Assembly: GCA_028768545.1 (NCBI GenBank)
Contig: CP054838.1
Location: forward strand, 2,715,001-2,779,000
Origin: Desulfobacter sp.
Lineage (GTDB): Bacteria; Desulfobacterota; Desulfobacteria; Desulfobacterales; Desulfobacteraceae
Direction: 5' to 3'
DNA: 64,000 nt
The notes beneath the pieces were generated by a model. It ran no database searches and had not been told where the DNA came from. It saw nothing but the letters and a program-made list of their open reading frames with translations. Position numbers and translations under genes: made by a program. Shown one piece after another: positions 17,885 through 44,222 of this stretch (positions are counted from its first letter, which is position 1; every line of letters starts with the position of its first letter).

Positions 17885-20718
17885 ATGACTAAATTTACCG
17901 ATTATAGATGGCTGGCCCTTTTTTTCGGGGCATTCTTTTTTTTATCCGGGTGCCAGGCTGGCCTGGCAGGAACAGATCAGCGGATATATCCTGAAACCTA
18001 TGGTCTGCTGGTTTCTTCTTTAGATCAACAAGAAATGACAATGGACCTGGATCTTAACAGCCCCGGCGTCCAGAAGTATGTGTCAGGCCCCTTGCCCCAG
18101 GGGCTTGACAACGATGCCTGCTTGTTTTTTTTCTGGGATTTTGACATCCCGGATTTTTTTAAAAATACCCCATTGCTCTTGTTTGTTCCGGCCACCCCAT
18201 ACCCCCTGGAAATAAGGGTCAACGGATATTTGGTTTTCTCAAGCGGTGTGATGAACTCCAACACCCGGCTTGACAAATACTATGGAGAGCGTGAATTTAT
18301 TTCCCGGACAATTCTCAACCTTGACGGTAGGAACAGATTAACGATTAAGGCTGTTCCAAGAAAAATCAGAACAGCCCTGCCTAAAATTTTTATGGGCAAG
18401 GCCACAGACGTATCCTCCAAAACAGTCTGGTACTCCATTGGACAATACAGCCTGCCCTTTGGATTTTCTTTGCTCAGTTTTTTTTCTGGTTCATGCTTAT
18501 CATCCTCTGGGCCGGAAACAAGTTTAAAAATTTAAGCCATTTTTATTTTTCCCTGACCTGCCTTTTCTTGGGCATGGCTTATTTGCATATGGGGTTGACC
18601 TCCCCTGACCGGGACGGACTTTTTTTATGGCAATTATCGCGGTTTAGTTTTTCAGCGGCTGGGGTTTGCATTTGTTTTTTCATTTTGGATTTTATCCAGC
18701 TCAAAACATGGACCCGGAAATTTAAAATAAATTTGGCCGTTCTGAGCCTGGTTGCCTTTGCGGGTATCCTTTTTTTTACCCGGGAAAGTATTTATGAGGT
18801 TAAGGCGCTGTTTTTTATTATTTCAAAATGGTTTTTGGGGCCGGTGATGATCATCATCCCCTTGATTCTGATTGTTGATTTTTTTAAGAGCAAACGAAAG
18901 GAATCTTTCATTATTTTAGTCTCTTTTTCCATCACGGCCATTACCGCGTTTCGAGATTTAAGGTTTGATCAAAATTTTATAGAGGCAGAGTTTTGAATGA
19001 TTCCCTTGGGATTTATGGCCATGGAAGTCGGGGTTATCCTGGTGTTGGTTCTTGAACAAAAAAAAATGTTTACCACCATTGCCTCCCAGAAAAAAAATGC
19101 CGAAGCCATGAACCAGCAGTTAATTCAGGCCAAGGAAAGGGCGGAAACCGCCAATGCGGCCAAAAGCCGGTTTCTGGCAACCATGAGTCATGAGATCAGA
19201 ACGCCCATGAACGGTGTCATGGGAATGAACCGGCTGCTTTTGGACACCGCCCTGACCTCTGAACAGGCCGGGTATGCCATGGCAGCGAAGGAGAGTAGCG
19301 AATCCCTGCTGACCCTGATCAATGATATTCTTGATTTTTCAGAAATAGAAGCCGGAAAAATGGATTTGGAAGAGGTTGAGTTTAACCTTCACACTCTGTT
19401 GAATAATTTTATTTATACCATGGGATATCGGGCCCGTGGGAAAAAACTTCAGCTTATATTTGAACCGGATTCTAAAAATCCTGTTTTTGTCAAGGGCGAT
19501 CCGGGCCGCCTGCGACAGGTCTTGACCAATCTTGTGGACAATGCCATTAAATTTACCCCAAAGGGCCATATCCGGGTGGGCACAAAACTCCAAAGCCAAA
19601 CTGCGACCCACCTTGAGATGAAGTTCACCATCCAGGATACTGGCATTGGTATCCCCCAAGAAAAGCAGGGGATGCTGTTCAAGGATTTTACCCAGGTGGA
19701 CTCTTCTGATTCCAGAAAATACGGGGGAACAGGCCTGGGGCTTGCCATCTGCAAACAATTAACAGAACTCATGGGCGGATCTATTCAGGTCAAGAGTGAA
19801 GAAAAAAAAGGCGCTTTGTTTTCTTTTACAATTCAGTTGAAAGCATCTCACCCAAAGCCCTCCTTTAAATCTCCCGATGGGGTGGTCGGATTTAAGGTGT
19901 TGGTCATGGACCCTGTTGGCCACTCGGGCAAACTCATGAAGCAGACCCTTGAATCCTGGTCTTTGCCTGTATGTCTAACCCAGGATGCTGCCGGGGGGAT
20001 TGAAGCTCTAAAAGAGGCTGCTGCCGCAGGTGAGCCCTTTGAGCTTGTCATTTTTGATCCTGACCTTCCTGATATGGACGGCCATGCCCTGGTGAGCATC
20101 CTCAAACAAGTGCACGAGATTTCCACGCTTTCCCTGGTGGTTGTCTCTGCCGCGGGACAGCGGGGCGATGCTGTTTTATATCATGAGATGGGGGTATCTG
20201 CTTATTTTACCCGGCCTGTTATCAATTCCGACCTGTACAATTGCCTGGTCATGATCAAAGAGCAGAAGGAGAAAACAAAAGCAGATCCTTCCGGCCTGAT
20301 CACCCGTCACAGCCTTCAGACCCGTAAAAATGCCCGGTATAAGCTGTTGCTGGTGGAAGACCACCCCATCAATCAGCAGGTGGCAAAAGGAATGCTCAAA
20401 AAGTTGGGATATGATGCCGACCTTGTTTTTGACGGGGCCCAGGCTGTCCGGGCGCTGAAGGAAACCTCATACACCCTGGTGCTCATGGACGTTCAAATGC
20501 CGGTCATGGGCGGATTTGAAGCCACCCGGATCATCCGGGAATCTTCTCCTGGCATTTTGAATCCTGATATCCCCATTATTGCCATGACAGCCAATGCCAT
20601 GGCAGAAGACCGGCAAAAATGCCTGGATGCCGGCATGGATGATTATATCCCCAAACCCATCCGGCCTGAAATGCTCTCTGCGGTTCTTGAAAAATGGATT
20701 TCAAAAGTCCCGTCCTAA
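17885..20718 (+). pseudogene. hybrid sensor histidine kinase, broken by a frameshift and an in-frame stop
   Basis: The parts read as one kinase. A signal segment with an LSGC lipobox-like site comes first, then an extracytoplasmic beta domain and a multi-helix membrane region of the 7TMR-DISM type. After these are HisKA ([10 protein letters not shown]), HATPase ([20 protein letters not shown]), a first receiver ([12 protein letters not shown]) and a second receiver ([22 protein letters not shown]). The frame shifts at a run of eight T near 18480-18488; the second part resumes with MLIILWAGNKF. An in-frame TGA at 18994-18996 follows IEAEF and the same frame continues with [11 protein letters not shown]. 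The soluble kinase part (18997-20718, 573 residues) is open and could be made alone. Homopolymer sequencing error could explain the first lesion. Confidence 0.82.
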
Positions 20719-22551: not shown

Positions 22552-25500
22552 ATGGCACCCAAAAAAACAAATATGATTACCCAGCCCATCGCCATCATCG
22601 GCATGGGCTGTATTTTTCCGGAATCCAGGAATCTTAAGGAATACTGGCATTTGCTTTTCAACGGCATTGATGCCATCAAGCCCATTCCCGAAGACTCCCA
22701 CTGGCAGTTAAAAGACTATTATGATTCTGATCCTGCCTGTCCTGACCATACCTATTGCACCCGGGGCGGATTCATTCCGCCAGTCGCCTTTGACCCCCTG
22801 CGCTACGGCATGCCCCCTAAAAATATCCAAGCCACAGACACCTCCCAGCTTCTCGGGCTTGAGGTGGCCAGGATGGCATTGGCAGACGCCGGATACCCGG
22901 TGGGCAATTCAGATATTCAAGATAAGAAAGTCAATGTGATTCTGGGGGTTACAGGGACCCAGGAGCTGGTGATTCCTCTGGGGGCAAGGCTTGGGCATCC
23001 TGTATGGAAAAAGGCAATGGAGGATGCCGGCATTGATCCTGCCAAGACCCGGGAAATCCTCCAGCGTATGGGCAACGGCTATGCCCAGTGGCAGGAAAAT
23101 TCATTTCCCGGGCTTTTGGGGAATGTGGTTGCCGGAAGGATTGCCAACCGTCTGAACCTTTCGGGCACCAATTGCGTTTCAGATGCGGCCTGCGCAAGTT
23201 CCCTGTCAGCGGTTCATATGGCCATTATGGAACTTGAGTCCGGCCGGTGCGACATGTCCATCACCGGAGGGGTCGATACCCTGAATGATATTTTCATGCA
23301 CATGTGTTTTTCCAAAACCGGGGTGCTTTCCCATACCAGTGATGCAAAACCCTTTTCCAAGGATGCCGACGGTACGGTTTTAGGGGAAGGAATCGGCATG
23401 CTGGTCTTGAAACGGCTGGCAGATGCTGAAAAAGATAAAGACAGAATTTATGCGGTCATCAGGGGGATGGGCACCTCCAGTGACGGTAAAACCTCTGCCG
23501 TGTATGCGCCCGAGGCAAAAGGACAGGTCAGGGCCCTTAAAGAGGCCTATGAAACATCCGGGATTGATCCTTTTTCCGTTGGGTTGATCGAAGCCCACGG
23601 TACAGGAACCCGGGTGGGAGACAAGGTCGAATTTACCGCATTAAAAACCTATTTCAGCGATGGGGCCAGGCACAATACCACGGCAGTGGGATCTGTAAAA
23701 TCCATGATCGGTCACACCAAGGCCTCGGCTGGTGCGGCAGGCCTTATTAAATCTGCCCTGGCCCTTCACCACAAGGTGATTCCCCCCACACTCAAGGCGG
23801 AAGTGCCTGACCCTGAACTGGATATCAATAACTCCGCCTTTTATCTTAATTCAAGTTCAAAACCCTGGATTCAGGCGGGTAAATCTTCTGAGCCCAGACG
23901 TTCAGGCGTTTCCGCCTTTGGGTTTGGCGGATCAAATTTTCATGCCGTGCTTGAAGAATACCAGCCTGAAAAAAGACATGTTTCCTGGGACGGGGCCGTC
24001 CAGATTATTGCGGCTTCAGCAGATGATCTTCAGACCCTCTCCCAAAAGCTTGGGCGTATAAGGGACAAGGTTGCAGCCCATGATGCCGGGGATGAGGTCG
24101 AGTATTCCCAGGCCCTGGCCTGGCAGGCAGGTGAATCCAGACATCAATTTTCCAGCCAGGATGAGTATAGGATCCTGATTCTGGTCTTAAAAAAGGATTG
24201 TTTTTCAGATCTCATGGACCAGGCCCTTGAGGCCATAGACAAACAAGAAGCCCCCATCCCCCCTGTCTTTTTCGGCAAAGGAAAGCCTGACGGGAAACTG
24301 GGCTTTGTTTTTCCGGGGCAGGGAAGTCAGTACACAGGCATGGGAAAATCGCTGATCTCTTTTTTCCCCGAGGCCATGGACGCCTTGAAACTGGGTCAGT
24401 CCTGTATGGAAAAAATTAATCTGGAACCTGAAACCCGGCCCTTATCCGAGTACATTTATCCTCTGCCTGAACATGTGCAGGATAAAAATGAGGCCCAAAA
24501 GGCCCTTCGCAAGACCCAGATTGCCCAGCCTGCCATTGGCGCCGTATCCCTGGCCATGATCCAGATTCTCAAACGGTTTAAGATCGCCCCGGAGATGACA
24601 TGCGGCCACAGCTTTGGGGAATTGTCCGCCCTTTATGCCGCTGGCTGGATGGATCAAAAAAGTTTTCTTGAGCTTTCCGCAGCCAGGGGCTATCAGATGG
24701 CCCAGGCCGGTAAACAAGGGGAGGACCCCGGCAGTATGCTGGCGATCCAGGCCCCCATTGAAACCATCCAGGCTCTTGTTGAAAAACATGGACTGGATCT
24801 GGTGCTGGCCAATAAAAATTCTCATACCCAGGGTGTGTTGTCCGGCAGTACAAGTCAGATCGATAGGGCAAAAAAAATCTGTAAACAGGAAAAGGTCCGG
24901 GCTGTGAAACTTCCTGTGGCAGCCGCCTTTCACAGCGCCCTTGTTGAAAAGGCAACAGGTCCGTTCAAGGATTTTCTGTCCAAAAAGATATTAACCCCCA
25001 CCCATGTTGATGTATTGTCCAATACCACGGGCAAATCCTATCCCCGGAATAAAAAAGAGAGCAAGGATCTGCTTGGCAACCAGCTCATGCATCCGGTAAA
25101 TTTTATTGACGACATTGAATACATGCATGAAAAAGGGGTTTCCACATTTCTTGAAATTGGCCCTAAAACCGTTCTTTCAGGTCTGATCCGGTCCATTTTA
25201 AAGGATGAAAAAATTCAGGCCTGGGCCCTGGACAACGCGTCGGGCAAAGATTCAGGTCTTCATGACCTGGGCACAGCCTTGTGCCGGGTGGCTGCCAGTG
25301 GATACGGTGTTGATCTTAGGTGCTGGGAAGATCCCGCACTGGAACCTGAAATTCAAAAAATGAAACTCATGCTCAGCGGTGCCAATCCAAAGCCTGAGGA
25401 AAAAAGTATCCCCCCTGTGGCTCAGCCCTTGGCCCCTGAGGCACAGCCCTTACCCCTTGAGGTAACCCAAGATAAAAATCTGGAAGAATCAGGTCCTTGC

Positions 25501-28500
25501 CCGGATGTTCAAAACAATCTCCCATTGGATCTGTCTGACAAACAAGGAAATATTATGACACCCTCTTCACATCCCCATACAACTAACCCTCAATCTTCTT
25601 TGGGCCCTCAAAATGTGGACCTGCTTCAAAAGGGTCTTGAAACCATGCAGCAGCTCCAGGCCCAGACGGCCCGGGCCCATGAAAAATTTTTGGAAACACA
25701 GGTCCAGGCCAGCCAGACCCTGGCTGCCATGATGGAACAGACCCGGGGCATTGCACCGGACAATTCATATCCCAAGGCGCAATATCCGGCCCCTGTAACA
25801 CCGGTGCCAGAACCCGTTGTGACCGAGGAAAGACCACGTTCGCAAATGCCCACGCCCCTGGAGAGCGATATTCCCCAAACAGCCGTACCTTCTGCTAAGG
25901 CCTTTGTCCCTGAAACACCTCAGATGCCTTTAACGGATTCTGAGCCGCCAATGTCTGTAAAGCCGATTTTGTTTGAGATCGTCAGCAGGTTAACCGGGTT
26001 TCCCCAGGAGATGCTTGAACCGGACATGGACATTGAATCTGATCTGGGCATTGATTCCATTAAAAAAGTGGAAATTATTTCAGAACTTGAAAAACAGATG
26101 CCGGCCGGTCAGACATTATCTTCGGACCATCTGTCTTCCGTTCGTACCCTCAAAGATATCTATGGGGCCATGGCAGGGGACGATGCATCAGAAACTGAGA
26201 CCGTTATACCGAACAAAGGGGCTGAGCCCACCCCTGCCGAGAACGCGTCAGAAAAAGCGCTCCGGACATTGGAGGTGCTTGTGAATATTATCAGTGATCT
26301 GACTGGGTTTCCAACACAGATGCTGGAACCTGAGATGAATCTTGAGTCAGATCTCGGCATTGACTCTATCAAGCGGGTTGAAATTTTATCCCAAATGGAA
26401 CAGGAGCTGCCCGGGATTCGAACCATATCACCCGATGACATGGGGAGACTCAAAACCATCCAGGACATTGTCCAATTCCTTATTCCGGCTGAACAAACGG
26501 GGGTCTCCAACCCTCCTAAAAAAAAAACTTCGCCTGATGCCGTAAAAGAGGAGGCTCTTCCCTTAAGGTCGGCCCCGGGCGGAATTGTTCGCCAGGAGAT
26601 TGTACTCAATCAATATCCCACAAATCAGATCCGGTTCTACAATGGATCCCGGATTGAACTGCCATGGGACAAAACAGTCTACCTGACCCGGGACAAGGCC
26701 GGCATTGCCCAAGCCTTTAAACAGGAATTTGAAAAACTGGAAATTAAGGCCGCGCTTATTGATATCAGCGGGGAAACAATATCTGACCTTCCTGACGCCG
26801 CAGGCCTTGTCCTTGTGCCAAACGCCTTTGATCCTCTGGATGATGCCCCGTCTTTTTTGGTGTCTGCCTTTGGACTTGCCAGTAAAAATTGTGGGTTTCT
26901 GGAAGCGTCTGCAAAGAAAAAAGGCAGCTTTTTTGCCACAATCAGTTTTTCAGGCGGCAGTTTCGGGTTTGACGGGGGGGCGCCTGGAATAAATCCAATG
27001 TACGGGGGCCTGGCCGGTTTGACCAAAACGGCGGACCTTGAATGGAAAACCGTATTGTGCAGGGCTCTGGATATGCCGGCAAGCATAGAAAAAGTCAAGG
27101 AAAATGCAGAGGCCGCCGTTGCCCTGATGCTGACCCATGGTGGTGTTGAAATGGGGCTTGACGGAGAACAATGCGCTATTCCTGCTCTGCAAATAAAAAA
27201 AATACCCTCTGAACCCTTATCTTTAGGCCCCCGTGATGTTGCCGTGATCACGGGCGGGGCCAAAGGGGTGACCGCTGAATGCGCCCTGGCCCTGGCCAAA
27301 GCCTGTTCCCCGCGCATTGTGCTTTTGGGCCGTTCTCCCTCTCCTTTTAAGGAGCCTGAATGGATCCAGGATCTCACAGACCCAGGCGAGATGAAAAAAG
27401 CGATTCTGGCCCAGGGAGCCGCCGGCGAAAAACCCACCCCCGCCCAAATTGAAAAAGAGTATCAGGCCATTCTTTCAAACCGGTGCATCCAGGAAAATAT
27501 TGACCGTATCAAGGCTTGGTCCCCCCAGGTTGAGTATTATTCGGCTGATATCCGGGACAAGGGCCAGGTGGATAAGATTTTTACCCGAATCACCTCTGCT
27601 TTAGGACCTATCGCCGCCGTTATTCACGGGGCAGGCGTGGTTGAAGACAAACGGATTGCCGAAAAAAAGATGGACCCGTTTAAACGGGTCTTTGAGACAA
27701 AAGTGACAGGGCTTGATGCCATTTTAGGGGCAATCAATGATCAAACCCTTCGTTATCTTGTTTTATTCTCTTCGGTTGCGGCCAGAATGGGAAATCCCGG
27801 GCAATGCGACTATGCCATGGCCAACGAGGTCTTGAATAAAAAAGCCCAGACCTTGGCCAAGGAACAGCCTCAAATACGTGTGTTGTCGCTGAACTGGGGG
27901 CCCTGGGACGGCGGCATGGTCAATGACAGCTTAAAGCGCGAGTTTGCAAGGCGGGGAGTGGATCTTATTCCCCAGACCCTGGGTGCCGATCAGATGGTCC
28001 GGGAAATGGGTAATCCGGATCACCATTGTGTTGAGGTGGTCATCGGTGGGGGGATGAACCCTGAGCCGTCTGAAAAAAAAACGGTGTTGAACAGGGCCAT
28101 GACCCAGATCCTGGGACCCAGCGCAAGTCCGATTATCAATGATCACAGAATCAATCATGACCCTGTTGTTCCCTTTGCCATGATAACAGACCTTTTGGCC
28201 TGTGCCGGGGAAAAGAATAATCCAGGCCTGAAATTTTCAGGGATGGAGGAGATGAGGCTTTTAAAGGGGATTGTGCCGGGACGAGACGAGTTTTTAGTTC
28301 AGGTGGATCTGGGCAAATGCATACCCAAGCAAAACATGTATTATGCGCCGGCAGCCCTGTCATCCGGGGACAAGGGGGAGATTGTCCATGCCAGGGCCAA
28401 ATTGCTCTTGGAAAATACCTTGCCTGAGCCTCCGGTGTTGTCCAAGGCTGCTTTCATGGATTTAAAACCCTATGCCCTGTCTGTTGAACAGGCATATGAT

Positions 28501-30093
28501 CAGGTTCTTTTTCATGGCAAAAAACTTCATGGCATTGTGAGTATTACAGGGGTCTCCTCCAAGGGGATCGAGGTTCTTTCACGCCAGGCCAAAGATATGG
28601 ATCAATGGTATGACAGTCCTTACAGCAAACATTGGACAATTGATCCCATGATGATAGATGCGGCATTCCAGGCCGCTATTTTGTGGACCTATCATACCCG
28701 GAATCAAGTCTGTCTGCCCAGCTTTTTTGAAAGCCTAAGGCTCTATTCATACTATTCTGAGAAAAAGGGCAAGATCAGGATTTTGTTTACGGTTAACCAT
28801 CAGACCGAATATAAGGTTCAGGGATATTTTACCTTTTTGGATGAAACCGATACCGTGATTGCCAGTATCATGGGGTTTGAAGCGGTGATTGATTCAGGAC
28901 TTTTAGATAAGTTCAAACCCGAGCCGTTGTTTAGCCGAAAAAAAATCCTTGCCTTTGCCCAAGGCAACCCTTCGGACGCCTTTGGCCAGCCCTATGAGAT
29001 CTTTGATGAAAAACGGCAGATCGCAAGACTGCCAAAACCCCCCTATTTTTTCATGGACAATGTGGTTCGTGCAGACCATACCCCATGGGAAATGAGACCC
29101 GGGGGCTGGATTGAAACCACCTATGAGATTCCTGATAATGAATGGTATTTTGCGGCCAATCGAAGTGATTGTCTTCCGTTTTGCATTCTTTTGGAAATCG
29201 CCCTTCAGCCCTGCGGGTGGCTTGCCGCCTATGCCGGTTCCGCCCTGCAAAGCAATGAGCGGCTACATTTTAGAAACCTGGGAGGACGGGCAACCTATCG
29301 TCGTAATTTAACCCGAACCTCGGGCCAGGTGATGGTCAGGGCAAAGATGACCGATGTATCCAAAGCCGGGGGCATGATTATCCAGGATTTTGAAATGGAA
29401 GTCTTAAATCAGGGCCAGGTGGTATACCAGGGTACAACCAATTTTGGTTTTTTTACCCAACAGGCCCTGTCCAACCAGGTAGGGATTCGGGAGAGCCGTT
29501 TTTTTGTCGACCTTCCGGCCCATACGGGGGGTCCTATCCCAAGGTTTAAAGATGATGCCCCTGTGACCCCGGCAGACATAGACTTGAGCCCGGATTCAGG
29601 CATGCCGTCCAAAGCACTGAGAATGATTGATTGTATTGATTATTTCGATCCCCAGGGCGGGGTGTATGAAAAAGGGTGTGTTCAGGCCGTAAAAAAGGTG
29701 GATGCCAATGAATGGTTTTTTGATGCCCATTTTTACCAGGACCCGGTATGTCCGGGCTCTTTAGGTGTTGAATCCTTTCTTCAGATGCTTCGTTTTGTTT
29801 TGATTGAAACTTATGAAATCGACCTGGAGGATTATGAGTCTGTGATACTGGAGGAAAATGCCCATGAATGGATATACCGGGGGCAGATTATTCCAGCCAA
29901 TAAACAGGTTATAATCCAGGCCCATATCAAGGAAATCTCCCATGATAACACACATTATACGGTTGTTGCAGACGGCGCCCTCGGGGTGGACGGAATTTGC
30001 ATCTATGAAATGAAAGATTTCGGGATTCAGTTTTCACCGGCAGTTAAAGAGAAGCGTTCTTCTAAGTCTAAAACCATGTCCCAGAACCGATAA
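22552..30093 (+). CDS. Pfa-like multidomain polyunsaturated fatty acid / polyketide synthase
   Basis: A 2513-residue iterative type I synthase. Ketosynthase: residues about 10-455 with C214 (DAACASSL), H349 (EAHGTGT) and H388 (IGHTKAS). Acyltransferase: about 584-905 with S687 (CGHSFGEL). A Pro/Gln-rich linker then leads to two acyl carrier domains with S1169 and S1272 (both LGIDSIK), 103 residues apart. Ketoreductase: about 1560-1790 with ITGGAKG at 1566 and Y1754. PKS-type dehydratase: about 1860-2110 with H1865 and D2036 (MIDAAFQA). Residues about 2130-2500 are PfaC-like FabA dehydratase repeats (LPFCILLEIALQPCGW, and a second PVCPGSLGVESFLQML). This merges PfaA- and PfaC-type domains in one chain and lacks a chain-length-factor domain. 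It needs PfaD (upstream) and a phosphopantetheinyl transferase (not seen). The exact product is unknown. Confidence 0.92.
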   Translation: MAPKKTNMITQPIAIIGMGCIFPESRNLKEYWHLLFNGIDAIKPIPEDSHWQLKDYYDSDPACPDHTYCTRGGFIPPVAFDPLRYGMPPKNIQATDTSQLLGLEVARMALADAGYPVGNSDIQDKKVNVILGVTGTQELVIPLGARLGHPVWKKAMEDAGIDPAKTREILQRMGNGYAQWQENSFPGLLGNVVAGRIANRLNLSGTNCVSDAACASSLSAVHMAIMELESGRCDMSITGGVDTLNDIFMHMCFSKTGVLSHTSDAKPFSKDADGTVLGEGIGMLVLKRLADAEKDKDRIYAVIRGMGTSSDGKTSAVYAPEAKGQVRALKEAYETSGIDPFSVGLIEAHGTGTRVGDKVEFTALKTYFSDGARHNTTAVGSVKSMIGHTKASAGAAGLIKSALALHHKVIPPTLKAEVPDPELDINNSAFYLNSSSKPWIQAGKSSEPRRSGVSAFGFGGSNFHAVLEEYQPEKRHVSWDGAVQIIAASADDLQTLSQKLGRIRDKVAAHDAGDEVEYSQALAWQAGESRHQFSSQDEYRILILVLKKDCFSDLMDQALEAIDKQEAPIPPVFFGKGKPDGKLGFVFPGQGSQYTGMGKSLISFFPEAMDALKLGQSCMEKINLEPETRPLSEYIYPLPEHVQDKNEAQKALRKTQIAQPAIGAVSLAMIQILKRFKIAPEMTCGHSFGELSALYAAGWMDQKSFLELSAARGYQMAQAGKQGEDPGSMLAIQAPIETIQALVEKHGLDLVLANKNSHTQGVLSGSTSQIDRAKKICKQEKVRAVKLPVAAAFHSALVEKATGPFKDFLSKKILTPTHVDVLSNTTGKSYPRNKKESKDLLGNQLMHPVNFIDDIEYMHEKGVSTFLEIGPKTVLSGLIRSILKDEKIQAWALDNASGKDSGLHDLGTALCRVAASGYGVDLRCWEDPALEPEIQKMKLMLSGANPKPEEKSIPPVAQPLAPEAQPLPLEVTQDKNLEESGPCPDVQNNLPLDLSDKQGNIMTPSSHPHTTNPQSSLGPQNVDLLQKGLETMQQLQAQTARAHEKFLETQVQASQTLAAMMEQTRGIAPDNSYPKAQYPAPVTPVPEPVVTEERPRSQMPTPLESDIPQTAVPSAKAFVPETPQMPLTDSEPPMSVKPILFEIVSRLTGFPQEMLEPDMDIESDLGIDSIKKVEIISELEKQMPAGQTLSSDHLSSVRTLKDIYGAMAGDDASETETVIPNKGAEPTPAENASEKALRTLEVLVNIISDLTGFPTQMLEPEMNLESDLGIDSIKRVEILSQMEQELPGIRTISPDDMGRLKTIQDIVQFLIPAEQTGVSNPPKKKTSPDAVKEEALPLRSAPGGIVRQEIVLNQYPTNQIRFYNGSRIELPWDKTVYLTRDKAGIAQAFKQEFEKLEIKAALIDISGETISDLPDAAGLVLVPNAFDPLDDAPSFLVSAFGLASKNCGFLEASAKKKGSFFATISFSGGSFGFDGGAPGINPMYGGLAGLTKTADLEWKTVLCRALDMPASIEKVKENAEAAVALMLTHGGVEMGLDGEQCAIPALQIKKIPSEPLSLGPRDVAVITGGAKGVTAECALALAKACSPRIVLLGRSPSPFKEPEWIQDLTDPGEMKKAILAQGAAGEKPTPAQIEKEYQAILSNRCIQENIDRIKAWSPQVEYYSADIRDKGQVDKIFTRITSALGPIAAVIHGAGVVEDKRIAEKKMDPFKRVFETKVTGLDAILGAINDQTLRYLVLFSSVAARMGNPGQCDYAMANEVLNKKAQTLAKEQPQIRVLSLNWGPWDGGMVNDSLKREFARRGVDLIPQTLGADQMVREMGNPDHHCVEVVIGGGMNPEPSEKKTVLNRAMTQILGPSASPIINDHRINHDPVVPFAMITDLLACAGEKNNPGLKFSGMEEMRLLKGIVPGRDEFLVQVDLGKCIPKQNMYYAPAALSSGDKGEIVHARAKLLLENTLPEPPVLSKAAFMDLKPYALSVEQAYDQVLFHGKKLHGIVSITGVSSKGIEVLSRQAKDMDQWYDSPYSKHWTIDPMMIDAAFQAAILWTYHTRNQVCLPSFFESLRLYSYYSEKKGKIRILFTVNHQTEYKVQGYFTFLDETDTVIASIMGFEAVIDSGLLDKFKPEPLFSRKKILAFAQGNPSDAFGQPYEIFDEKRQIARLPKPPYFFMDNVVRADHTPWEMRPGGWIETTYEIPDNEWYFAANRSDCLPFCILLEIALQPCGWLAAYAGSALQSNERLHFRNLGGRATYRRNLTRTSGQVMVRAKMTDVSKAGGMIIQDFEMEVLNQGQVVYQGTTNFGFFTQQALSNQVGIRESRFFVDLPAHTGGPIPRFKDDAPVTPADIDLSPDSGMPSKALRMIDCIDYFDPQGGVYEKGCVQAVKKVDANEWFFDAHFYQDPVCPGSLGVESFLQMLRFVLIETYEIDLEDYESVILEENAHEWIYRGQIIPANKQVIIQAHIKEISHDNTHYTVVADGALGVDGICIYEMKDFGIQFSPAVKEKRSSKSKTMSQNR

Positions 30094-43070: not shown

Positions 43071-43907
43071 GGTTCTGTTGCAAAAAATATTTCCAGGACA
43101 AAGAGATCGTTCAGGCGTAAAATTTACGCAGCATAAGAAAACAGATTTTCGACGAATTTTTTCTGCTTTAAAATTTCTCCCTTCCTGATATTTTTAACTT
43201 GTCCTTTTCTGATCATGTTCATAATTTCATAGCCTTTTAGCGTCCGCCAGGCAGAATGAAATGTCTTGAACCCCATACCAGCTCTGACAAGCTTTTTGAT
43301 AAACCGGTGGTCTTGCTCAATAATATTGTTCAGATATTTATTCTGTCTTAGGATACAGTCCTTATTCAGAAGCTTTTTTTCTTTCAAAGCCTTTACAGCC
43401 GGAGGATATGCAGGATTTCCGTCAACACTCAGAACCCGAGGTCTGGAGCTATTGGAAGCTCGCAGCATCTTTTTAAAAAATCGTTTGGCAGATTCCATAT
43501 TACGTCTGCTGCGAAGAAGAAAATCGATGGTATTTCCACGGGAATCGACCGCTCGGTAAAGATACTTCATTTTCCCCCGCACCTTGATATATGTTTCATC
43601 AATACGGTAAGAATCATTTGATTGCCGCAGATACTTCCTGCTTCGCTTTTCCATTTCAGGAGCATAGCGCTGAACCCATCGGTAAATGGTACTGTGATCC
43701 ACAGACAAGCCCCGTTCTTGCATCATCTCTTCCAGATTCCTGTAACTCAGTTGATATCTCAGATACCAGCGAACATTCAACAGGATGATTTCTTTTTCAT
43801 AATGACGCCACTTGAAAGGGTTTTCATTTTTCATACTATCTCTCTGCAAATAAATTAGTGCCAAAACGGACTTGTATCAGACATTAATAATTTTTTGCAA
43901 CAGAACC
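43071..43907 (-). mobile_element. IS6-family insertion sequence, copy 1 (837 bp)
   Basis: Terminal inverted repeats GGTTCTGTTGCAAAAAAT at both ends, typical of IS6/IS26-type elements. Flanks (ATAAAATA left, CAAAGAAT right) do not match, so there is no 8-bp target duplication here; this copy has been through a rearrangement or a replicative event. Near-identical copies lie at 44595-48210 (interrupted) and 60197-61033. Confidence 0.92.
43124..43834 (-). CDS. IS6-family DDE transposase (copy 1)
   Basis: 236 residues from ATG 43834 (MKNENPFKWRHY), preceded by AGAGAGATAGT. Catalytic residues are D in YRIDETYIKVRG, D in LSVDGNPAYPP and E in NIIEQDHRFIKK. These are the standard IS6 motifs. It looks intact. 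Confidence 0.92.
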   Translation of the reverse strand: MKNENPFKWRHYEKEIILLNVRWYLRYQLSYRNLEEMMQERGLSVDHSTIYRWVQRYAPEMEKRSRKYLRQSNDSYRIDETYIKVRGKMKYLYRAVDSRGNTIDFLLRSRRNMESAKRFFKKMLRASNSSRPRVLSVDGNPAYPPAVKALKEKKLLNKDCILRQNKYLNNIIEQDHRFIKKLVRAGMGFKTFHSAWRTLKGYEIMNMIRKGQVKNIRKGEILKQKKFVENLFSYAA

Positions 43908-44124: not shown

Positions 44125-44222
44125 GGAAGCACGCGGCTCACTGGTGGGGCCCTCGGACTTCAAATCCGATGTGGGGAGTTAATACCTTCCCGGGTAGGTT
44201 CGATTCCTATGTGCTTCCGCCA
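44125..44222 (+). tRNA. selC: tRNA-Sec (selenocysteine, anticodon TCA)
   Basis: A 98-nt tRNA with an 8-bp acceptor stem (GGAAGCAC/GTGCTTCC), anticodon stem-loop CGGACTTCAAATCCG with TCA, a long variable arm (TGTGGGGAGTTAATACCTTC region), T arm GGTTCGATTCC and encoded CCA. These are the hallmarks of bacterial tRNA-Sec, so the organism inserts selenocysteine at UGA. No selA, selB or selD is in the window. A strong promoter precedes it and a T run follows it. Confidence 0.96.

Follow-up and report, generated by a model that had tools for sequence, protein, structure and literature searches.

The stretch under study, hereafter called the window, comprises 64,000 nucleotides of a Desulfobacter chromosome (positions 2,715,001-2,779,000 of a single-contig genome of 4.96 Mb, 97% complete) and contains the gene for a 2513-residue lipid synthase that we identify as a variant of the Pfa subunit PfaA. 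The genes for its likely partner PfaC and for the hydrocarbon-forming proteins OleA, OleB and OleC are found at a distant locus of the same genome. We consider it probable (about 0.7) that the two chromosomal loci together code for a rearranged multi-protein Pfa synthase that feeds an Ole pathway, and that a long-chain, probably polyunsaturated hydrocarbon is made anaerobically in this way. What is new here is a Pfa/Ole system in which one dehydratase unit has been shifted between subunits and in which the gene run is broken in two. The joint action of both halves in this strain, the sequence of reactions and the product are inferred by analogy with described Pfa/Ole systems.

The PfaA variant and the distant pfaC-ole locus

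The pfaA gene is a single open reading frame (ORF) that starts with ATG and contains no internal stops. Pfam assigns to its product a ketosynthase (KS; ketoacyl-synt), an acyltransferase (AT; Acyl_transf_1), two acyl carrier proteins (ACP; PP-binding), a ketoreductase (KR), a dehydratase (DH) of the polyketide synthase (PKS) type (PS-DH; PKS_DH_N stayed below its Pfam cut-off) and two FabA stretches (Table 1), which confirms the single-chain domain order given in a first-pass annotation of this DNA. The NCBIfam PfaA model TIGR02813 matches with 1344 bits (cut-off 1010) and the next best model with 687 bits. By this profile match the KS would fall within the Pfa group, and the earlier description of a Pfa-type synthase with PfaC-like dehydratases on PfaA holds. 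The domain order fits the KS-MAT-multiple ACP-KR pattern by which PfaA proteins are recognised, with two ACPs only. FabA-like units should be absent from a PfaA but a pair of them is present at the C-terminus, and the protein is therefore a variant of PfaA. In an end-to-end alignment with five single-ORF relatives it shows 52-65% identity, far beyond chance, and the motif residues of the KS, AT, ACP and KR domains are unchanged in all six sequences. C214 of the KS is presumably the nucleophile, and the roles of H349 and H388 are likewise assumed. The FabA histidine, which we take to be the active-site residue, is kept in the second FabA-like unit only, and because of this the pair most likely represents one dehydratase unit and not two. 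A scan for promoters and terminators gave nothing above shuffled sequences.

Searches of the whole genome with the FabA family returned four matches: PfaA has two of them, and the other two fall in a single ORF near 3.33 Mb (L005:8952-13199). The KS family matched in PfaA, in the same ORF near 3.33 Mb, at a locus near 1.86 Mb and in three further ORFs, which look like thiolase genes. The ORF near 3.33 Mb codes for 1415 residues with a KS, a FabA pair and, as a further element, a second KS-like domain that has a serine in place of the nucleophilic cysteine, as in chain length factors (CLF). Judged by this domain content it is a PfaC of the order KS-CLF-FabA pair. It is followed on the same strand, with overlapping reading frames, by genes for OleA, OleB, a 245-residue protein and OleC; pfaC and these genes together occupy genome positions 3,328,951-3,337,550. 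OleA matches NF006720 (named 3-oxoacyl-ACP synthase III) with 417 bits, over the cut-off, and its nearest solved structures are 3fk5, 3row and 4kti, which we take to be Xanthomonas OleA. The call of OleB rests on an alpha/beta hydrolase match plus its position; OleC exceeds the cut-off of its top model, which describes a family of fatty acid CoA ligases.

Two further components are coded for in the window. The pfaD gene ends 120 bp before pfaA and is the single match of the PfaD family in the genome. It is indeed the only partner directly beside pfaA, as the first-pass annotation had stated, but a gene for an OleD-type reductase 12 kb downstream of pfaA was overlooked there. With 185 bits this protein heads the 3Beta_HSD matches of the genome (the next has 73), among the NCBIfam models it fits two for OleD best, and by these matches it probably provides the missing Ole step. 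Seventeen loci were also scanned for a nucleotide-binding motif in order to find an OleD beside oleC, but the ole runs yielded no convincing candidate. Two ORFs with such a motif are located upstream of pfaC in genome G026. Directly 3' of the oleD-type gene of the window lies an IS6 family transposase (43124-43864). Candidates for PfaA, PfaC and PfaD and for OleA, OleB, OleC and OleD are all present in the window genome; all their frames are open and the catalytic motifs of PfaA and PfaC are in place.

The 245-residue protein between oleB and oleC (L005:15165-15902) has one apparent membrane helix, as judged by eye. It has no Pfam or NCBIfam match, and the best match among solved structures (E 0.028) is not convincing. 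A single hydrophobic helix, no family match and no convincing structural match led us to reject the idea that it stands in for OleD; a possible role is that of an anchor for the Ole complex. In a comparison of 59 genomes of the order, 36 of the window's family (Desulfobacteraceae) and 23 from other families, a small protein in this position (205-279 codons between stops) was found in ten of those whose loci were read, namely nine of the family and G052. It was not seen in the ole runs of G020, G033, G036, G043 and G045.

In the proposed scheme, the window half would contribute OleD, PfaD as enoyl reductase (ER), and a PfaA that combines KS-AT-ACP2-KR-DH with the second of two FabA-type dehydratase/isomerase units. 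From the distant half would come OleA, OleB, the small one-helix protein, OleC, and a PfaC in which the KS-CLF is joined to the first of these units. The AT would load malonyl units on the ACPs of PfaA, PfaA with its KS and PfaC with its KS-CLF would elongate the chain, and reduction would be performed by the KR. The FabA-type units, of which PfaA and PfaC carry one each, would dehydrate and isomerise the intermediates and thereby keep cis double bonds without the use of oxygen, and PfaD would reduce the remainder. OleA would then draw two acyl chains off the ACPs and join them head to head, and OleD, OleC and OleB would convert the joined product to an olefin like hentriacontanonaene, with a long chain and probably with several double bonds. 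That OleA takes its chains from the Pfa ACPs in vivo is described in PMC6463001, and Geobacter bemidjiensis, according to passages in two papers, has the run pfaDABC-oleABCD-pfaE and makes C31:9 (PMC4882568, PMC3098273). A hydrocarbon-type product, as already suggested by the first-pass annotation, would by this analogy remain the best guess.

Several observations weigh against a joint Pfa/Ole system in this strain. The start of pfaC is ~590 kb from that of pfaA, and the two halves are thus far apart. The olefin beta-lactone synthetase models give 603 and 583 bits with OleC, under their cut-offs of 850 and 900, and the two OleD models remain under a strict cut-off of 580 with the reductase of the window (NF042423 393 bits, NF042422 371 bits). 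FabA-like unit 2 of PfaA has E2407 at the site where FabA has an aspartate. A PfaB-type AT was found neither on PfaC nor among the scanned neighbouring proteins of the window genome, no genome-wide AT search having been made; the only other AT seen lies in a broken giant synthase (see below), and PfaC of G033, G036 and G045 shows a weak AT match. Nor was a phosphopantetheinyl transferase (PfaE) present among the neighbouring proteins scanned, no search having been aimed at this enzyme. OleC was not seen beside pfaC in G020 and G033, which show OleA and OleB only, and G011 has neither PfaA nor PfaC. Lastly, no report of a long-chain hydrocarbon in Desulfobacteraceae was found among the open-access titles and abstract starts listed.

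Table 1 Positions of the pfa and ole features of the window
Feature	Position	Strand	Evidence
pfaD, enoyl reductase, 519 residues	20872..22431	+	TIGR02814, 597 bits (cut-off 449)
pfaA with relocated PfaC-type dehydratase unit, 2513 residues	22552..30093	+	Pfam, NCBIfam, alignment, tree
KS domain of PfaA	22582..23961	+	Pfam; motif residues C214, H349, H388
AT of PfaA, malonyl transferase type	24304..25206	+	Pfam; GHSFG with S687
ACP 1 of PfaA	25957..26181	+	PP-binding Pfam; S1169 in LGIDSIK
ACP 2 of PfaA	26275..26481	+	PP-binding Pfam; S1272 in LGIDSIK
KR of PfaA	27244..27909	+	Pfam; TGGAKGV, Y1754/N1758
PKS-type DH-like domain of PfaA	28099..28881	+	PS-DH over cut-off; H1865, D2036 unchanged in 6/6
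FabA-like unit 1 of PfaA, degenerate	28927..29466	+	Pfam; N2203 in place of FabA His
FabA-like unit 2 of PfaA	29605..30012	+	Pfam; H2393 aligned to FabA His (PDB alignment)
oleD-type 2-alkyl-3-oxoalkanoate reductase, probable, 331 residues	42071..43066	+	3Beta_HSD; NF042423, NF042422

Arrangement in relatives and the shifted dehydratase unit

The closest loci in a scan of named genomes belong to Desulfospira, Desulfobacula, Desulfotignum, Desulfobacterium, Desulfocicer and Desulfobacter; some of the named loci and of the numbered genomes are the same record, and the rows are partly non-independent. Some rows of family members are identical to those of Desulfospira joergensenii and Desulfocicer vacuolatum, which makes the window's family Desulfobacteraceae as the genome collection defines it; for the Desulfobacterium rows the NCBI label reads Desulfobacteriaceae. 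In Desulfobacter latus, G017 and G018 both halves of the system form one run on one strand, pfaC-oleA-oleB-x245-oleC-pfaD-pfaA, with pfaA as two ORFs where it is visible whole. A pfaA that is split into two adjacent ORFs, KS-AT-ACP2 and KR-DH-FabA pair, occurs in at least 11 of 18 genomes of the same genus (for example at loci L149, L029 and L030), and a pfaA of one ORF in the window genome and in G008. PfaA is matched in 34 of the 36 family genomes (best E <=1e-154; not in G011 and G024) and PfaC in 32, those without it being G001, G011, G013 and G024. In every PfaC locus that was read and is long enough to show it, oleA is located 3' of pfaC. Matches in plasmid records all had less than 60% identity, and none spanned 80% of the query.

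The FabA pairs are distributed differently between the subunits in the family and outside it. Most examined relatives of other families have two FabA pairs on PfaC, whereas in Desulfobacteraceae the second pair is found on PfaA. G036, G043 and G045, which belong to other families, have a PfaC with two FabA pairs at its end, and the second pair is a relative of the tail of the window PfaA (for G045, Pfam finds three FabA stretches over the cut-off). The PfaA of G043 lacks the tail, and in G036 and G045 the match to PfaA likewise stops before it. Among 78 named loci the tail is present on PfaA in 43 and absent from 18 with enough sequence, the remaining 17 not being judgeable; both FabA pairs are on PfaC in all five named PfaC loci from organisms with a tail-less PfaA, and PfaC of D. 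latus has one pair. In a maximum-likelihood tree of the unit in question one change separates 49 PfaA tails from 7 PfaC ends, a split with support 100/94 and present in 200 of 200 bootstraps. This tree is unrooted and contains 56 rows (52 different), with labels set by the upstream domain and L103, L123 and L151 dropped for low score. Since the canonical arrangement has both units on PfaC, we infer that the dehydratase unit moved from PfaC to PfaA. The PfaA of the window and the distant PfaC are, by their domains, one set, because the second FabA pair sits on PfaC elsewhere and on PfaA in the family. Outside the order, locus L112 of Planctomycetaceae bacterium PLA4 shows pfaD, pfaA, a PfaC that has two FabA pairs as well as an AT match, and then OleA-like matches, in the same order as in the sulfate reducers.

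Two copies of an ISL3 element with 1213 of 1215 identical ORF bases were noticed in the window genome, one upstream of pfaC (L005:7030-8244) and one that ends the giant synthase gene (L017:14893-16107). Recombination between such copies is one way in which the pfa-ole run could have been split, but this is speculation. Two other features of the window may be mentioned. Between xerD and pfaD lies a gene for a 7TMR-DISM hybrid histidine kinase (17885-20718) that is broken by one frame change and one stop; in the relatives L065 and L119 the same kinase is intact, with one ORF of 1140 and 1111 residues, respectively. A tRNA-SeC gene is present at 44125-44222, and selenoproteins with an in-frame TGA may therefore exist in this genome.

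Type II genes and alternative roles of the synthase

The most serious alternative, to which we give rather less than an even chance, is that PfaA with its relocated dehydratase and PfaD, with or without PfaC, makes the C14-C18 membrane fatty acids after loss of the type II pathway, and that olefin formation is a side branch or absent. It is based on a striking gap in the gene inventory of the family. FabF and FabZ over their curated cut-offs were each found in 0/36 family genomes, compared with 19/23 and 17/23 outside; one or the other is present in 21 of the 23 others, the two without being G046 (83% complete) and G052. A Fisher p of 5e-14 for this contrast ignores the relatedness of the genomes and is disregarded here; because the family members are related, the contrast amounts to about one event. 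G052 has, outside the family, the same PfaA tail. In the window genome the KS- and FabA-family searches (FabI, FabG, FabD and free ACP were not searched) gave no stand-alone FabF/FabB or FabA/FabZ match: all KS-type matches are in PfaA, PfaC, the broken giant or the three thiolase-like ORFs, and all FabA/FabZ-type matches are in PfaA or PfaC. Weaker FabF- and FabZ-like matches occur in many family members, though not in the window genome, and presumably belong to aryl-polyene-type clusters. The nearest approach to a type II set is a borderline case in G004 (G004:C1:5999390-6013850), where a FabZ-like gene, 2 bits short of the cut-off (153.1 of 155.15), is adjacent to a FabF-like gene (407 of 494 bits). 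A FabH-type KAS III is over the cut-off in 34 of the 36 family genomes, and type II-like chemistry may thus partly remain. PlsX proved uninformative as a marker of a primary role: it was over the cut-off in none of the 59 genomes (one weak match, G028), not even in those with FabF and FabZ, and acyl transfer to glycerol phosphate may therefore follow another route.

A second candidate for the core enzyme has to be weighed. This single-chain synthase of ~3900 residues comprises an ER (NMO-type), a KS, a KS-like domain, an AT, a further KS-like domain, four ACPs, a KR and a weak PKS-type DH, and its C-terminal part was found in 32/36 family genomes and 6/23 others. In the window genome its gene (L017:6589-14834, genome 1856588-1864833) has two frame changes and one stop and is truncated at the ISL3 element, and a search of the rest of this genome did not reveal its KR-DH end. 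The opposite situation is met in G011, a 99% complete draft coded as the same genus. PfaA, PfaC, FabF and FabZ are missing there, whereas the giant synthase is present, spread over two contigs, along with other KS-bearing ORFs and two PfaD-family ORFs of 782 and 796 residues. This gene set speaks against a universal role of PfaA. Either the PfaA synthase or the giant could make the fatty acids; the window genome points to the former and G011 to the latter. Two relatives, D. autotrophicum and Desulfobacter hydrogenophilus, gave lipids after growth in minimal medium with H2 or with single substrates (PMC4969296), which means that fatty acids are made de novo. For D. autotrophicum a core role of its Type S synthase was suggested by Shulse and Allen in 2011, as fabA and fabZ are missing (PMC3098273, relevant passage), while a passage in a 2016 review calls the pfa genes of the same organism possible remnants (PMC4882568).

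A core role and the Pfa/Ole system can both hold. In a more tentative combination of the two, which we regard as possible but rather doubtful, PfaA and PfaD became a self-sufficient type I fatty acid synthase through the FabA-type unit moved from PfaC and replaced the type II pathway in an ancestor of the Desulfobacteraceae, and the same subunit would make a hydrocarbon with PfaC and the Ole proteins. In that case the saturated and monounsaturated membrane lipids of a whole family of sulfate reducers would come from a polyunsaturated fatty acid synthase that was converted to this use.

Less support can be found for the assumption that the system is a polyunsaturated fatty acid synthase of the kind that makes eicosapentaenoic (EPA) or docosahexaenoic acid (DHA), with a product destined for phospholipids and with independent ole genes. 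The PfaA and PfaD profiles are over their cut-offs and the two loci between them provide all the domains, the PfaB-type AT excepted; however, the constant position of oleA behind pfaC, the mere two ACPs and the fact that PfaB was not seen make this unlikely. The passages on the lipids of this group that were available name branched, cyclopropane and 10-methyl acids and contain no mention of polyunsaturated ones.

A minimal synthase of PfaA and PfaD alone, without any CLF, was the view of the first-pass annotation, and we now consider it improbable. Every activity that a full reductive cycle needs is indeed present once in the tailed PfaA and PfaD, and the pfaA and pfaC loci are unlinked in the window genome. 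The absence of KS-CLF, correctly noted for the protein and the window, does not extend to the genome, and the KS-CLF-FabA pair gene near 3.33 Mb is largely what that annotation had regarded as incompatible with its proposal, namely a PfaC gene elsewhere under co-regulation. Three of the four family genomes without PfaC are <=74% complete, pfaC is contiguous with pfaD-pfaA in D. latus, G017 and G018, and PfaA and PfaC each carry a part of the dehydratase set; a single-chain, CLF-less system can hardly be maintained.

A decaying remnant without function, as suggested for D. autotrophicum, is very improbable given the open frames and intact motifs of both halves and the family-wide conservation of PfaA and PfaC, even if the sensor kinase upstream of pfaD and the giant synthase are both broken in the window genome, which may reflect real decay or assembly error.

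The comparison of genomes has allowed us to rejoin the scattered pieces of one anaerobic lipid pathway and to trace one move of a domain between megasynthase subunits. None of the open-access titles and abstract starts listed describes a relocated dehydratase, a split locus or a family-wide loss of FabF and FabZ. The 10-methyl and cyclopropane acids of this group serve as sediment biomarkers, and the lack of FabF and FabZ over the cut-off in all 36 family genomes raises the question of where a biomarker group obtains its membrane fatty acids. It is this fatty acid supply of the family, more than its membership in the Pfa/Ole systems, that makes the system interesting. An isotope study with such strains assumes that bacterial fatty acid biosynthesis is conserved (PMC4969296). 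If a Pfa-type synthase were indeed the core enzyme, both this assumption and the label 'secondary lipid' would fail for the family.

Comparison with known Pfa systems

Shulse and Allen (2011) define 20 synthase types (PMC3098273). Among the closest known systems is the Pfa/Ole system of Geobacter bemidjiensis (Type I), which has pfaD, pfaA and PfaC-type genes together with oleABCD in an anaerobe and C31:9 as its product. Its genes are arranged in tandem with pfaB and pfaE, whereas the window genome has two loci and no PfaB-type AT on PfaC, carries the second dehydratase unit on PfaA, has a small protein between oleB and oleC and keeps oleD apart. Types A and B (Shewanella EPA, Moritella DHA), in organisms with oleABCD, share the PfaA profile, tandem ACPs, PfaD, a PfaC with KS-CLF and the link to OleA; the PfaA of Type A differs by its 4-6 ACPs and the absence of FabA units, both DH units being on PfaC.

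Among the types from related bacteria, Type S of Desulfobacterium autotrophicum comes from a close relative in the window's family, for which the core role mentioned above was suggested because fabA and fabZ are missing; it may equal the PfaA synthase, the 3900-residue synthase or both. Type C of Desulfatibacillum alkenivorans is likewise a Pfa-type synthase of a deltaproteobacterium, but its pfaBC fusion carries both DH units. Type J of Planctomyces limnophilus resembles the window half as a two-gene pfaD-pfaA cluster and differs in its PfaA, which is of the order KS-MAT-ACP3-KR and has no FabA units.

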